Shown here one piece after another: positions 18,836 through 23,961 of a stretch of 35,445 nucleotides of DNA. Source of the stretch: Minisyncoccota bacterium (lineage in GTDB: Bacteria; Patescibacteriota; Minisyncoccia; Phycocordibacterales; UBA9973); the NCBI GenBank assembly GCA_017992305.1, contig JAGOOX010000004.1, positions 1-35,445 on the forward strand, given 5' to 3'. How positions within the stretch are numbered: the first letter of the stretch is position 1; every line of letters begins with the position of its first letter. The notes beneath the pieces are model-generated. The model ran no database searches, had not been told where the DNA came from, and saw only the letters and a program-made list of their open reading frames with translations. Position numbers and translations under genes: made by a program.

Positions 18836-19852
18836 TTACTTTTCTTTGATATCAAAACCTAATAATTCATAAGCTTTGTTTGTGGCAATGCGACCCCTTT
18901 GTGTACGTTCAATAAAACCTTGTTGTATTAGGTAGGGTTCGATCACGTCTTCGATTGTTGACTCTTCCTCTGACAACGCTGACGCTAGTGTGTTAACACC
19001 GGTTGGGCCACCGTTAAATTTTTCAATCAAAACCCCTAAGTATTTGCGGTCAGATTGGTTTAGGCCACTATCGTCAACACCCAACATGTCTAATGCTTCT
19101 TTGGCGACATTTTTAGTTGCGTCTTTTTTATAAACTTGTGCAAAATCACGCACACGCTTTAAAAAATAATTTGCCGTACGGGGTGTTTGACGACTACGAA
19201 TTACAACCTCATTTATGGCGTCAGTGTCAGCAACTAGGCCTAGTAGTTTTGCTGAACGCTCGACTATTTTAGTTAATTCATCAATTGAATAATATTCTAG
19301 TCTGTATGCTCCACCTGAAAAACGTGACCTTAATGGGGCCGACAATGACGCAACCTTGGTTGTAGCACCAATTAGTGTAAATGGTGGCAGGTCTAATTGT
19401 ATGGTGCGGGCCGATGGGCCCTTGCCGATAATAATATCTAAAACGCCCGATTCCATAGCGGGGTATAGAACCTCTTCAATCATTTTGTTTAACCTATGTA
19501 TTTCGTCAATAAATAATATGTCGCCTGGTTGTAGGTTTGTTAGTATAGATGCTAAATCGCCAACTTTTTCAATTGCGGGCCCAGATGTAACCCGAATTTG
19601 TCGGCCAGTTTCGCGGGCAATTAGGTGGGCAAGGGTAGTTTTACCCAAACCTGGTGGGCCATAAAATAAAATGTGTTCGGCTGGGTGGTTACGCTCGCTA
19701 GCAGCTAAAAGTAGTATTTTAACATTGTCTTTTATATGCTCTTGGCCAACATATTCGGCCCAAGTATCGGGTCGTAGGGTACTGTCTAAAAAGCCCTCGT
19801 CATGAAGTTTTTGAACGTCTTTTTCTTGATTTTTTACTGTTTTTTGGCTCAT
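18836..19852 (-). CDS. ruvB: Holliday junction branch migration helicase RuvB
   Basis: A 338-residue AAA+ motor of normal length. The Walker A is YGPPGLGKTTLAH and the Walker B is LFIDEIHRLN. The sensor 1 region is LIGATTKVASLSAPLRSRF, where RuvB normally has GATTRxGxLxxPLRxRF. The winged-helix C-terminal region is IEPYLIQQGFIERTQRGR. It acts with RuvA to drive branch migration before RuvC cuts. The first 26 bases around the start codon are duplicated just upstream (see the repeat at 19820-19877). No clear promoter was found; the divergent intergenic region ahead holds a DnaA-box cluster. Confidence 0.97.
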   Translation of the reverse strand: MSQKTVKNQEKDVQKLHDEGFLDSTLRPDTWAEYVGQEHIKDNVKILLLAASERNHPAEHILFYGPPGLGKTTLAHLIARETGRQIRVTSGPAIEKVGDLASILTNLQPGDILFIDEIHRLNKMIEEVLYPAMESGVLDIIIGKGPSARTIQLDLPPFTLIGATTKVASLSAPLRSRFSGGAYRLEYYSIDELTKIVERSAKLLGLVADTDAINEVVIRSRQTPRTANYFLKRVRDFAQVYKKDATKNVAKEALDMLGVDDSGLNQSDRKYLGVLIEKFNGGPTGVNTLASALSEEESTIEDVIEPYLIQQGFIERTQRGRIATNKAYELLGFDIKEK

Positions 19853-19951: not shown

Positions 19952-19978
19952 TTGTCCACAATATTCACATTACCCACA
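19952..19978 (+). promoter_or_regulatory. Three abutting DnaA-box-like 9-mers
   Basis: TTGTCCACA, ATATTCACA and TTACCCACA follow each other head to tail with no gap. Each has one mismatch to TTATNCACA. The cluster lies 22 bp upstream of the -35 of a strong promoter and resembles the arrangement at the dnaA origin region. Confidence 0.6.
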
Positions 19979-20000: not shown

Positions 20001-20028
20001 TTGACAAATGATTTCATATTGCTATAAT
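20001..20028 (+). promoter_or_regulatory. Strong promoter of the putative ncRNA
   Basis: TTGACA (20001-20006), a 16-nt spacer with TGC extension, and TATAAT (20023-20028). Both hexamers are perfect. The predicted start is near 20035. Confidence 0.85.
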
Positions 20029-20034
20029 AGAAGT

Positions 20035-20330
20035 CTTGGTGATGGATTTGTGAGATTATTTAAGGAACTATTTGTATAAATTTTTCTTTAAACTTTCTCG
20101 TAAATCTATTATACCAAAGAAGGCACAACTCTCTAAGTGGCCAGCTCCGGCCCAGGGGATCGTGAAGAGGACGTTCTGGTTTCGACTGGATCTATCCTTT
20201 GAGCTTTTCCTACTCGCAATTATGTATAATCGCGAGGGCCGTTTAGAGATTTGTGCTTTTTTAATGCAAAAAAACTCAAGATATATTTTTTATATAATTC
20301 AAAACCCCCTAATTTTCAGGGGGTTTGTTT
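20035..20330 (+). ncRNA. Putative structured RNA of about 295 nt, family not recognised
   Basis: The unit runs from a consensus promoter to a terminator with no credible protein. The 87-residue frame inside (20072-20335) runs through the terminator hairpin and shows no domain, so it is rejected. Visible structure: AGCTC (20143-20147) pairs with GAGCT (20201-20205), and directly inside it AGGGGAT (20154-20160) pairs with ATCCTTT (20194-20200), with the CGGCCC bulge between them. A long hairpin lies at 20213-20236 (CTCGC-A-ATTAT / ATAAT-C-GCGAG). The GGACGTTCTGGTTTCGACTG segment resembles the 5' end of tmRNA, but no T-arm or matching acceptor 3' end exists nearby. No RNase P or SRP RNA hallmark was seen. 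A 6S-like RNA remains possible. Confidence 0.65.
20302..20330 (+). terminator. Terminator of the putative ncRNA
   Basis: AAACCCCCT pairs with AGGGGGTTT around a 7-nt loop, followed by GTTTATT. It is placed just before the independent promoter of the M16 gene. Confidence 0.85.
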
Positions 20331-20331
20331 A

Positions 20332-20360
20332 TTGACAAAACATATAAAATAGTGTATATT
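20332..20360 (+). promoter_or_regulatory. Promoter of the M16 peptidase gene
   Basis: TTGACA (20332-20337), a 17-nt spacer and TATATT (20355-20360). The ATG is 25 nt further, giving a leader of about 19 nt. The AAAGGA element (20364-20369) overlaps the predicted transcription start and lies too far from the ATG to be a normal Shine-Dalgarno. Confidence 0.8.
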
Positions 20361-20385: not shown

Positions 20386-21666
20386 ATGGAAGAAATAAAA
20401 ACACTCGCCGAATTCGGCGTAACAAAACATGAAAAAGTCCTTGATAATGGGCTGCAAACTATCTTTATAGAAAAACCATTCTCGCCAATTTACGCCAAAA
20501 TTGTAATTGGTGCCGGATCGGTTTTTAACCCGTCCGACAATGGATTGGCTCATATGGCTGAGCATTTATTGGCTGGATCTAAAAACACATCCAAAGAGGA
20601 GTTTCATAGAATTATTGAGTCTATTGGGGGATTTAAAAACATGTTTACCTCAAGGGAATGGGCGTCGGTTAATGCCGAGGTTGCCGAAACGTCTCAGTTG
20701 CCGGCAGTATCAAAATTATTTGATGAAGCCTTGGCGTCTATTTATTTAACGCCTGAATTTTTAAGGAAAGAAAAAGAAGTGATCTTTTCTGAAATTCAAG
20801 AAGTCTTAAATAAAAATCCTTACCGTAATGCCTCTAGACAAATACTGCGTGCGTTTACTCAGTCGAGCCCATGGAGTTATTCGAATTTTGGTGAGGTTGA
20901 TCAAATGATGAATCTAACGACTAGTGATATTGAAGACTTTTTCTCTAAGTATTATGTTGTTGAAAATATGCTTTTGGTTGTTGCTGGTGGGTGCAAAATG
21001 TCTGACATTGAAGAACAGTTTTCAAAAATCAATTTTTTACATGGAACAAGGGCTGTATTGCCCGAAAGTCCTAAGGTTGTAAACAACCAAAGATTTTTTC
21101 AAGCGCTGGATGTTTCGCAAACAGAACTTTCTGTGGGCTTTAAGGGTCCAAATCCTAATACACGAGAAAGTCATGTTTTAAACTTTGCAATGTTTTTTGC
21201 TCATGATGGTTTAGCTTCACGTTTTTACAGAAGTATTCGAGGCGACAAATCTCTCGCTTACAGTCTTTCTGGAAATATGCTTGTTCTAAATAGGACAAAA
21301 TATTTTGGAACCGTTTTGAGTGTACCTGGTGCTAAAATTGATGAAACAATCGACACTGTGCTTGATTGCTATCAAAATTTTGCATCAGAGGGCATGACCC
21401 AAAAAGAGATTGATGGTAAAAATGAAACAGCTTGGTTTTCTGTAAAAAGAAATATGGAGCGTTCGTTTGATTGGGTTGAAAAATTTGACAACTTCTTGTT
21501 CGAAAATGAAAGTATCAACACTGTCTTTGGAGAGTTTCCAGGCGTTTATAACTTTAGAAAAAGCATTACTGTTGACGAGATCGACGCAGTGCTTAAAAAA
21601 TATATAACGCCCGAGTCTTTTAACTTACATGTAGTCGGCAAAGAACCCAGTAAAAAATATTTTTAA
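20386..21666 (+). CDS. M16 family zinc metallopeptidase (pitrilysin/insulinase-like)
   Basis: A 426-residue single-chain M16 peptidase of the half-size (two-domain) type. The inverted zinc site HMAEH lies at residues 56-60 (His56, Glu59 catalytic, His60), and the third ligand is a Glu near residue 136 in FSEIQEVLNKNPYR. The second, non-catalytic domain begins around residue 230. No signal peptide is visible, so it should be cytoplasmic unless exported by another route. In other bacteria half-size M16 proteins process peptides, often as pairs; no inactive partner is adjacent here. It has its own strong promoter and a terminator at both ends of the unit. Confidence 0.93.
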   Translation: MEEIKTLAEFGVTKHEKVLDNGLQTIFIEKPFSPIYAKIVIGAGSVFNPSDNGLAHMAEHLLAGSKNTSKEEFHRIIESIGGFKNMFTSREWASVNAEVAETSQLPAVSKLFDEALASIYLTPEFLRKEKEVIFSEIQEVLNKNPYRNASRQILRAFTQSSPWSYSNFGEVDQMMNLTTSDIEDFFSKYYVVENMLLVVAGGCKMSDIEEQFSKINFLHGTRAVLPESPKVVNNQRFFQALDVSQTELSVGFKGPNPNTRESHVLNFAMFFAHDGLASRFYRSIRGDKSLAYSLSGNMLVLNRTKYFGTVLSVPGAKIDETIDTVLDCYQNFASEGMTQKEIDGKNETAWFSVKRNMERSFDWVEKFDNFLFENESINTVFGEFPGVYNFRKSITVDEIDAVLKKYITPESFNLHVVGKEPSKKYF

Positions 21667-22260: not shown

Positions 22261-23961
22261 TTACTCCTCAAAATTTAGATCAACTGCACCTAACACTTCT
22301 TCGTACGAAGTTATACCTTTTAATAATTTTAAAATACCATCTTCGCGCATATTTAATATGCCTTGTTTGTTGGCGACTTTTTCAATTTCATGTTCTGAGG
22401 GTGATGTAGGTATTAAGTTTGCCATTTCATTGTCGGTAAGTATTGCTTCAAATACACCAATACGGCCTTTGTAACCTGTAAAGTTACACTTGTCGCAACC
22501 AACAGCTTCGTACGCTTCAAATGGGGCAGTTATGTTTATTCCGTAACTGGCCATGTCTTTACCCATTTGTTTTGCATAGTCTAGTATTTTTACAATTTGT
22601 TTTTCAGGATCAGGAGCAATGGTTGTTTTTTGTTTACAAAATGGGCACAAACGGCGCACTAAACGTTGTGCCATTGAAACGCTCAATGCTGAAACTAAGA
22701 TTTTTGGGTTGGCACCTAGGTCAATTAAACGGGGTATAACACCAGCCGCCGAATTGGTGTGTAAGGTTGAGAAAACCATGTGCCCAGTTAGCGCAAAGTT
22801 TATCGCCACACCGGCAGTTTCTTTGTCGCGAATTTCACCCACCATACAAACCTCGGGGTCTTGTCGCACAGCGGCACGCACAGCATCGGCGAAAACATAT
22901 TTTTCATCGGCTTGAGTTTGGGTAATACCAGGTAGGTGAAATTCAATAGGGTCTTCGACGGTAATGATTTTTATTTCGCTTGAATAAATACGACGCAAAA
23001 ATGAATACAGTGTTGCAGTTTTACCACTACCTGTTGGGCCCGTAATTAAAATCAATCCATGCGGTTTTTTAATTTGTTCATCAAGGATCGCAAACAGTTT
23101 AGGTTCAATACCTAGGTCTTCAAATTTAACTTGGGTAATTTTTGGGTCAAGTAATCGCATAACAATACCTTCGCCATATGCACCCGGCACGGTTGATGTA
23201 CGAATACCAATTTCTTCGTTTTTATAAAAAATACTAAAACGACCGTCTTGCGCACTGTTTGTTTGGGTTAGTTTTAGGCCCGACAATAATTTCAAACGAG
23301 AATTTATTAAGTGATATTTTTCGCTTTTTAGTTCGGCAATTTCTTCAAGCACGCCGTCTAATCGGTAACGCAATCGAATAAATCCCTCCTCGGGTTCAAT
23401 GTGTATGTCAGATGCGCCAACCACAATCGCACCAGCTAAAATAATTTCAAGTAATCGTGATGTTGAATGCAAATCATTTAACTTGGCTACATCGTTAACA
23501 GCCCTTGAAACGTCTTGCATGGTTTTAATTTGCAAACCTAAACGAGTTAAGGTCTCGCTTGAAATATCAATACCGCCCTCGCGCGAAATAGTTGAGTGCG
23601 AAATTTCAGTGTAGCGTTCGTAAACCCTGTTTAAACTTGCAAGGCTGGCAAGGTAAAAGTGGGGCACCATACCCATGTCTTTTAGTTTGTGTCTAATTTC
23701 ATCAAGTTTTTTATTTTCAGGTGAACGCAATGCAATGTGTATGTGTTTACCACCGGCTTTGAATGGGGCAATACCAGCCTCGCGTGCCAATGTTTCAGGA
23801 ATATATTTCAATGCATCGGCCTCTAATGGCATGCCGGCCAAATTAATATAAGGCAAACCAAAATTATTGGCGGCCATGGCTTCAACTAACTGCTCTTCTT
23901 CTTTCAAAATTGCGTCGTTAATTTTACCTTTTGATTTATCATCAGTAAAAGAAATAGTCAT
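22261..23961 (-). CDS. pilB: Type IV pilus assembly ATPase PilB (GspE family)
   Basis: A 566-residue secretion ATPase that powers pilus extension at the inner membrane. The N-terminal MshEN/T2SSE domain spans residues about 20-135. The catalytic domain has ITGPTGSGKTATLYS (Lys314), an Asp box around IKIITVEDPIEF, Walker B CMVGEIRDKETA and the His box ALTGHMVFSTLHTN. The tetracysteine zinc site is CPFC and CDKC, as in PilB/GspE and not PilT. It would act on the pilin encoded at 5.1 kb. A minus-strand extended -10 ends 6 nt before the ATG, so the mRNA should be leaderless. PilC and prepilin peptidase are not in the window. Confidence 0.95.
   Translation of the reverse strand: MTISFTDDKSKGKINDAILKEEEQLVEAMAANNFGLPYINLAGMPLEADALKYIPETLAREAGIAPFKAGGKHIHIALRSPENKKLDEIRHKLKDMGMVPHFYLASLASLNRVYERYTEISHSTISREGGIDISSETLTRLGLQIKTMQDVSRAVNDVAKLNDLHSTSRLLEIILAGAIVVGASDIHIEPEEGFIRLRYRLDGVLEEIAELKSEKYHLINSRLKLLSGLKLTQTNSAQDGRFSIFYKNEEIGIRTSTVPGAYGEGIVMRLLDPKITQVKFEDLGIEPKLFAILDEQIKKPHGLILITGPTGSGKTATLYSFLRRIYSSEIKIITVEDPIEFHLPGITQTQADEKYVFADAVRAAVRQDPEVCMVGEIRDKETAGVAINFALTGHMVFSTLHTNSAAGVIPRLIDLGANPKILVSALSVSMAQRLVRRLCPFCKQKTTIAPDPEKQIVKILDYAKQMGKDMASYGINITAPFEAYEAVGCDKCNFTGYKGRIGVFEAILTDNEMANLIPTSPSEHEIEKVANKQGILNMREDGILKLLKGITSYEEVLGAVDLNFEE

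Follow-up and report, generated by a model that had tools for sequence, protein, structure and literature searches.

A conserved four-armed RNA candidate beside ruvB in Paceibacteria that matches no catalogued RNA family

The window, a 35,445-nt stretch of a Minisyncoccota bacterium genome (609 kb in 52 contigs), carries ruvB on the minus strand (18836..19852; Pfam RuvB_N/RuvB_C) and an M16 peptidase gene on the plus strand (20386..21666; identified by Pfam) that has its own promoter at 20332-20360. A preliminary description of this DNA had placed a candidate structured RNA between these two genes, at 20035-20330, and the Pfam matches confirmed both neighbors. Farther along on the minus strand lies a pilB/gspE-type ATPase gene (22261..23961; Pfam T2SSE and MshEN), which is the usual convergent neighbor in relatives. 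The M16 peptidase gene, by comparison, is a neighbor in this locus only; it adjoined the RNA at no other locus checked, and its presence in the window is a local insertion.

Upstream of the candidate RNA, a plus-strand promoter at 20001..20028 matched the consensus at 12/12 bases (-35 TTGACA, 16-nt spacer, extended -10 TATAAT, with TG preceding the -10). The usual form in relatives was TTGACA-17-TGCTATACT. At least 11 of the 12 consensus bases were present upstream of 59 of 93 members, compared to 0-2 in Markov controls, and at least 10 of 12 upstream of 80 of 93, compared to 4-9 in controls. The distance between promoter and conserved core varied among relatives from a few nt to ~150 nt, so the start sites are uncertain. 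Two possible transcript ends were noted on the plus strand. An earlier candidate is a U run at 20257-20262, at the foot of the P1 stem described below, and the second is an intrinsic terminator at 20302..20326 with a 9-bp stem and a T-rich tail. The sole open reading frame of the candidate region (87 aa, 20072-20335) had no Pfam match. Folding of 20035-20330 gave z = -8.0 and folding of the core gave z = -5.2, with no shuffle equally stable in either case. The perfect promoter, the clean terminator and the lack of a credible reading frame, all noted in the preliminary description, were thus borne out. From the promoter and terminator, which are the support for a transcript, we infer that the RNA gene is transcribed.

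We searched 100 related genomes at the DNA level (most of the genomes that we compared are metagenome-assembled) and saw conservation begin at about 20117 and stop at about 20262. This conserved core (20117..20262, plus strand) was matched by covariance model R1 at 20117-20266 with 136.6 bits (E 2.9e-31). The 5' leader before it (20035..20116, plus strand) folds into a long hairpin in the window species (MFE -25.4 kcal/mol, z of about -7), and the leader of a congener, different in sequence, also does so (z of about -5). No sequence conservation of the leader was found in relatives' genomes outside the genus, where leaders differed in length and were mostly unstructured. The leader hairpin is confined to the genus of the window species and was therefore rejected as a conserved element. 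The proposal of a structured RNA at 20035-20330 accordingly held, but the conserved unit is shorter than proposed, extending over 20117-20262 or, by the model match, to 20266.

To obtain the fold, 16 members were aligned with MAFFT and then folded to one consensus. P1 is a 26-bp closing stem in which 20117..20142 pairs with 20237..20262; its inner half is near-invariant in sequence, and its 3' strand ends in the U run. Enclosed by P1, on the same plus strand, are a small hairpin, P2 (20143..20153); an arm, P3 (20155..20211), in three helical parts, P3a (20156-20162/20204-20210), P3b (20168-20171/20195-20198) and P3c (20173-20180/20185-20192); and a further hairpin, P4 (20213..20236). In the window species all that remains of P2 is a UCCG tetraloop closed by 2 bp; across relatives 4/4 of the P2 pairs covary, as do 8/8 of the pairs in P4. 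The P3 arm carries a conserved GGACGNNNTGG...CTGGNNCTATCC motif plus a tmRNA-like stretch. The linkers between the arms were 0-2-2-0 nt in 67-68 of 69 members, and P1 to P4 are predicted to meet in a tight four-way junction. One of the two long helices reported previously, 20213-20236, is exactly P4, whereas the other, 20143-20205, was not recovered, the conserved pairing there being that of P3; the main helix, P1, had been overlooked. P1 passes straight into at least 5 U in 53 of the 69 members, and the U run that ends its 3' strand is a possible built-in terminator.

Covariation was assessed in two alignments. The MAFFT alignment was made independently of the structure; in it 92.3% of the pair cells were standard, both partners had changed in 31 of 56 pairs, and covariation scored 0.396, compared to 0.181 for shuffled and at most 0.12 for slid alignments. 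The model alignment of 69 members, which leans to the structure, had 94.2% of cells paired, double changes in 47 of the 56 pairs, and a score of 0.424 (0.171 shuffled, at most 0.11 slid). The preliminary description had suggested looking for conservation and covarying pairs in relatives; both proved very strong, and the covariation gives the predicted fold overwhelming support across divergent genomes. We conclude that the window evidently holds a stand-alone structured RNA that represents a real gene family. Within the pairs there were 617 G-U cells and 47 A-C cells. This asymmetry clearly points to the plus strand as the RNA strand, and the minus strand was rejected on the same count. The palindromic nature of P1 lets the model score to some extent on both strands, as would be expected if there were no RNA gene here and the locus were a palindromic DNA element or a mobile repeat. 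Against that explanation are the G-U to A-C asymmetry, the conserved promoter, and the occurrence in each genome at a single locus whose position is fixed, and we regard it as scarcely credible.

Sequence conservation was concentrated in the helices, with a mean of 1.24 bits for paired columns and 0.65 bits for unpaired columns. Loops were variable in both sequence and length. Apart from the UA linker leading into P4 and a C that faces UA in P3, no unpaired base was near-invariant, and the aligned members had no conserved unpaired stretch of more than 2 nt. In two helical regions the sequence was constrained beyond the needs of pairing. One is the inner half of P1 (AAUCUCUAAGCAAUC / GAUUGUUUAGAGAUU); the other is P3b/P3c (GGACGNNNUGG...CUGGNNCUAUCC), whose internal loop is one-by-two and whose tandem U-G/G-U is invariant. 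A mutual-information search for a pseudoknot gave no consistent extra helix. A stand-alone gene with a promoter and a terminator would suit a small regulatory RNA that pairs with mRNAs by means of a single-stranded seed. However, the loops are what varies most, and since no unpaired run longer than 2 nt is conserved, there is no such seed; this explanation is therefore quite improbable. Conservation of bases in helices, and not in free loops, favors instead a trans-acting RNA-protein scaffold in which the helices and the junction would be read by protein.

Model R1 matched 91 of the 100 relatives (56 of 60 in the same family and 35 of 40 in other families of the order), nearly always at one locus per genome. 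Model R2 matched 101 of 287 genomes sampled from the class, a count that is probably a lower bound given the strict search filters. An even sample of the phylum (380 genomes) gave 15 matches, 14 of them within the same class. The RNA thus appears nearly confined to one class of Patescibacteria, Paceibacteria. Nearly all the named loci that a pattern from the window RNA picked up belonged to Candidatus Nomurabacteria/Paceibacterota, and the named matches included Vogelbacteria. Carriage by phages or viruses was rejected: phage genomes had no pattern match, and the lone pattern match in IMG/VR was not matched by the model.

The position of the RNA was as constant as its fold. Among loci with enough sequence, ruvB lay upstream on the opposite strand in 109 of 109, within 600 nt in 107, and a pilB/gspE-type ATPase gene lay downstream within 900 nt, facing the RNA, in 82 of 102. 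Distant members of the class repeat this arrangement of divergent ruvB and convergent pilB. Because the downstream gene is mostly convergent and ruvB always divergent, the RNA is its own transcription unit and not the leader of a conserved downstream gene; a riboswitch or cis-leader would precede such a gene and run in the same direction, which is not the usual arrangement at these loci. That the RNA keeps its place next to ruvB could point to a local role, which would speak against action in trans. Specifically, the RNA could be a cis-linked regulator of divergent ruvB or convergent pilB, acting through its transcription or its structure by interference or antisense, in a connection with DNA uptake and recombination; speculatively, its four-way junction could serve as a decoy for RuvB-type proteins. 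The arrangement is kept across many families, a point in favor of such a regulator. However, as a rule neither the ruvB nor the pilB-type gene is overlapped, a transcriptional effect in cis would not need 47 covarying pairs, and in the window the pilB-type gene has moved 2 kb away while the RNA is still intact. Regulation in cis is consequently an unlikely explanation.

No family in Rfam 15 matched the core of the window RNA, either at gathering cut-offs or at E<=10, and none matched in 20 relatives at E<=10; one further member gave only microRNA-type chance matches far below cut-off. We found no earlier description in the open-licence literature, although one could exist outside it. The RNA matches no family database searched and appears to be new to the catalogues; together with the strong conservation and covariation, this supports the earlier suggestion of a new RNA of this lineage. 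The preliminary description was also correct that hallmarks of tmRNA, RNase P RNA and SRP RNA are missing. Neither ARAGORN nor Rfam detected a tmRNA, with its tRNA-like domain and tag frame, in the window, and the true tmRNA (RF00023) of this genome lies on another contig (G000:C10:12047-12413, 101.8 bits). The stretch said to imitate a tmRNA 5' end, GTTCTGGTTTCGACT (15 nt), does resemble it but forms the end of the P3 hairpin, conserved in the outer part (GGACG..TGG) and variable in the UUUCGA loop. A permuted or degenerate tmRNA was rejected given the variable loop and the tmRNA elsewhere. RNase P RNA (RF00010) was likewise not found in the window; contig C52 has a match (E 3.4e-30) whose 94.6 bits fall slightly below the cut-off of 100.

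SRP RNA (RF00169, domain IV) was found in 0 of 21 genomes. The Ffh M domain (PF02978) was over cut-off in 0 of 21 relatives, 0 of 287 genomes of the class and 1 of 380 genomes in the phylum sample, and was present in 14 of 14 control genomes. Matches to the SRP54-type GTPase family (PF00448) in relatives were short P-loop matches, one of them barely over cut-off. A 2015 paper on Parcubacteria (PMC4508563) already described the loss of ffh and 4.5S RNA, and our counts add a larger sample only. The window RNA resembles bacterial small SRP RNA in size and in being single-copy, and with SRP RNA, the Ffh M domain and SRP GTPases all missing here, it might be a stand-in for SRP RNA in an SRP-less lineage. 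However, SRP loss is phylum-wide and the RNA belongs nearly to one class, so the two do not coincide, and the RNA has neither the SRP domain IV motif nor an Ffh to bind. Identity with SRP RNA was rejected, as RF00169 gave no match and SRP loss does not track the RNA, and we consider a replacement role very improbable.

The preliminary description also suggested a 6S-like RNA, which would make the RNA this lineage's version of the open-promoter mimic that binds the RNA polymerase holoenzyme and is freed by product-RNA synthesis. Like 6S RNA (RF00013), the RNA is stand-alone and single-copy and falls within 150-200 nt. The layouts are also alike, in that a long closing stem leads to a central junction flanked on either side by hairpins and then to an apical arm, and the promoter of the window RNA is of the type used for abundant RNAs. 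No 6S RNA was otherwise detected, with 0 of 21 genomes over cut-off anywhere. In lactic acid bacteria the 6S gene is next to rarA, a recombination AAA+ ATPase gene (PMC8414754), much as the present gene adjoins ruvB. Against this, RF00013 did not match in the window or in 20 relatives even at E<=10, E. coli 6S did not match model R2, and the RNA differs from 6S in its tight four-way junction and long invariant sequence stretches. An open, mostly unpaired central bubble was not found; both strands of the center are covarying hairpins, P2 and P4, that shut it with linkers of 0-2 nt. Free B. subtilis 6S-1 does form a hairpin in its 3' bubble (PMC8876501), a point in favor of the 6S suggestion. 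A -10 mimic in the 3' part of the center was rejected, its best match to UAUACU (4.1/6) being no better than that of shuffles (3.9/6). Ms1 RNA of actinobacteria, set beside the window RNA by description, is also a lineage-specific, structured, 6S-type RNA that was recognized through its conserved gene neighborhood (PMC9130861), but it is ~300 nt long, has another neighborhood and binds core RNA polymerase. With neither a covariance match nor an open bubble, the 6S suggestion is neither proven nor refuted, and we hold it to be doubtful, although clearly better placed than regulation in cis.

Taken together, these data indicate that the RNA is probably a trans-acting part of a ribonucleoprotein in Paceibacteria, single-copy, independently transcribed and uncatalogued. 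The strong sigma70-type promoter would give a transcript with a conserved core of ~150-170 nt, and this core would fold compactly, with the P1 closing stem, P2, the P3 arm and P4 forming the four-way junction. From the conserved helices we infer that the RNA binds protein, which probably reads the inner half of P1 and P3b/P3c. The other housekeeping RNAs of these cells are either accounted for (tmRNA, RNase P RNA) or undetected (6S, SRP RNA). By elimination only, RNA polymerase leads the candidates for a single partner, in a 6S/Ms1-type role, and this assignment would be tentative. Somewhat more plausible, yet short of an even prospect, is that the RNA dates back to the ancestor of Paceibacteria and belongs to a novel type of housekeeping ribonucleoprotein; in these SRP-less cells its partner would then be something other than RNA polymerase or the RNA-binding machines known so far. 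Minimal-genome bacteria throughout a class have retained the RNA as a single copy at a constant chromosomal site, so it very likely matters to the cell, and a housekeeping function is very probable. It would be either a 6S RNA of new architecture, the one missing so far from Paceibacteria, or an unfamiliar kind of RNA machine, and the covariance model makes it directly testable in metatranscriptomes and co-cultures.

Three further observations were made at these loci and in the searches. DnaA-box-like sites (TTATCCACA, at most 1 mismatch) occur between ruvB and the RNA at 19952-19978 in the window and in the upstream regions of relatives; there were 39 in 68 loci, compared to about 5 in controls, chiefly in one subgroup. 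A replication origin was rejected, as the enrichment is seen in some relatives only and GC skew has no clear switch. The model match outside the class (genome G344, locus L075), read by eye, lacks P3 and is not a member; it is a palindromic repeat, ATTTCTAACGGGGTTTAGAGATTAG, on the minus strand at L075:1501-1632 in another class of the phylum, which partly mimics P1 and looks like a separate repeat element. Finally, one relative has a weaker second match to model R1 (G077:C9:70800-70959, E 2.2e-10), which is possibly a second copy or a paralogue.
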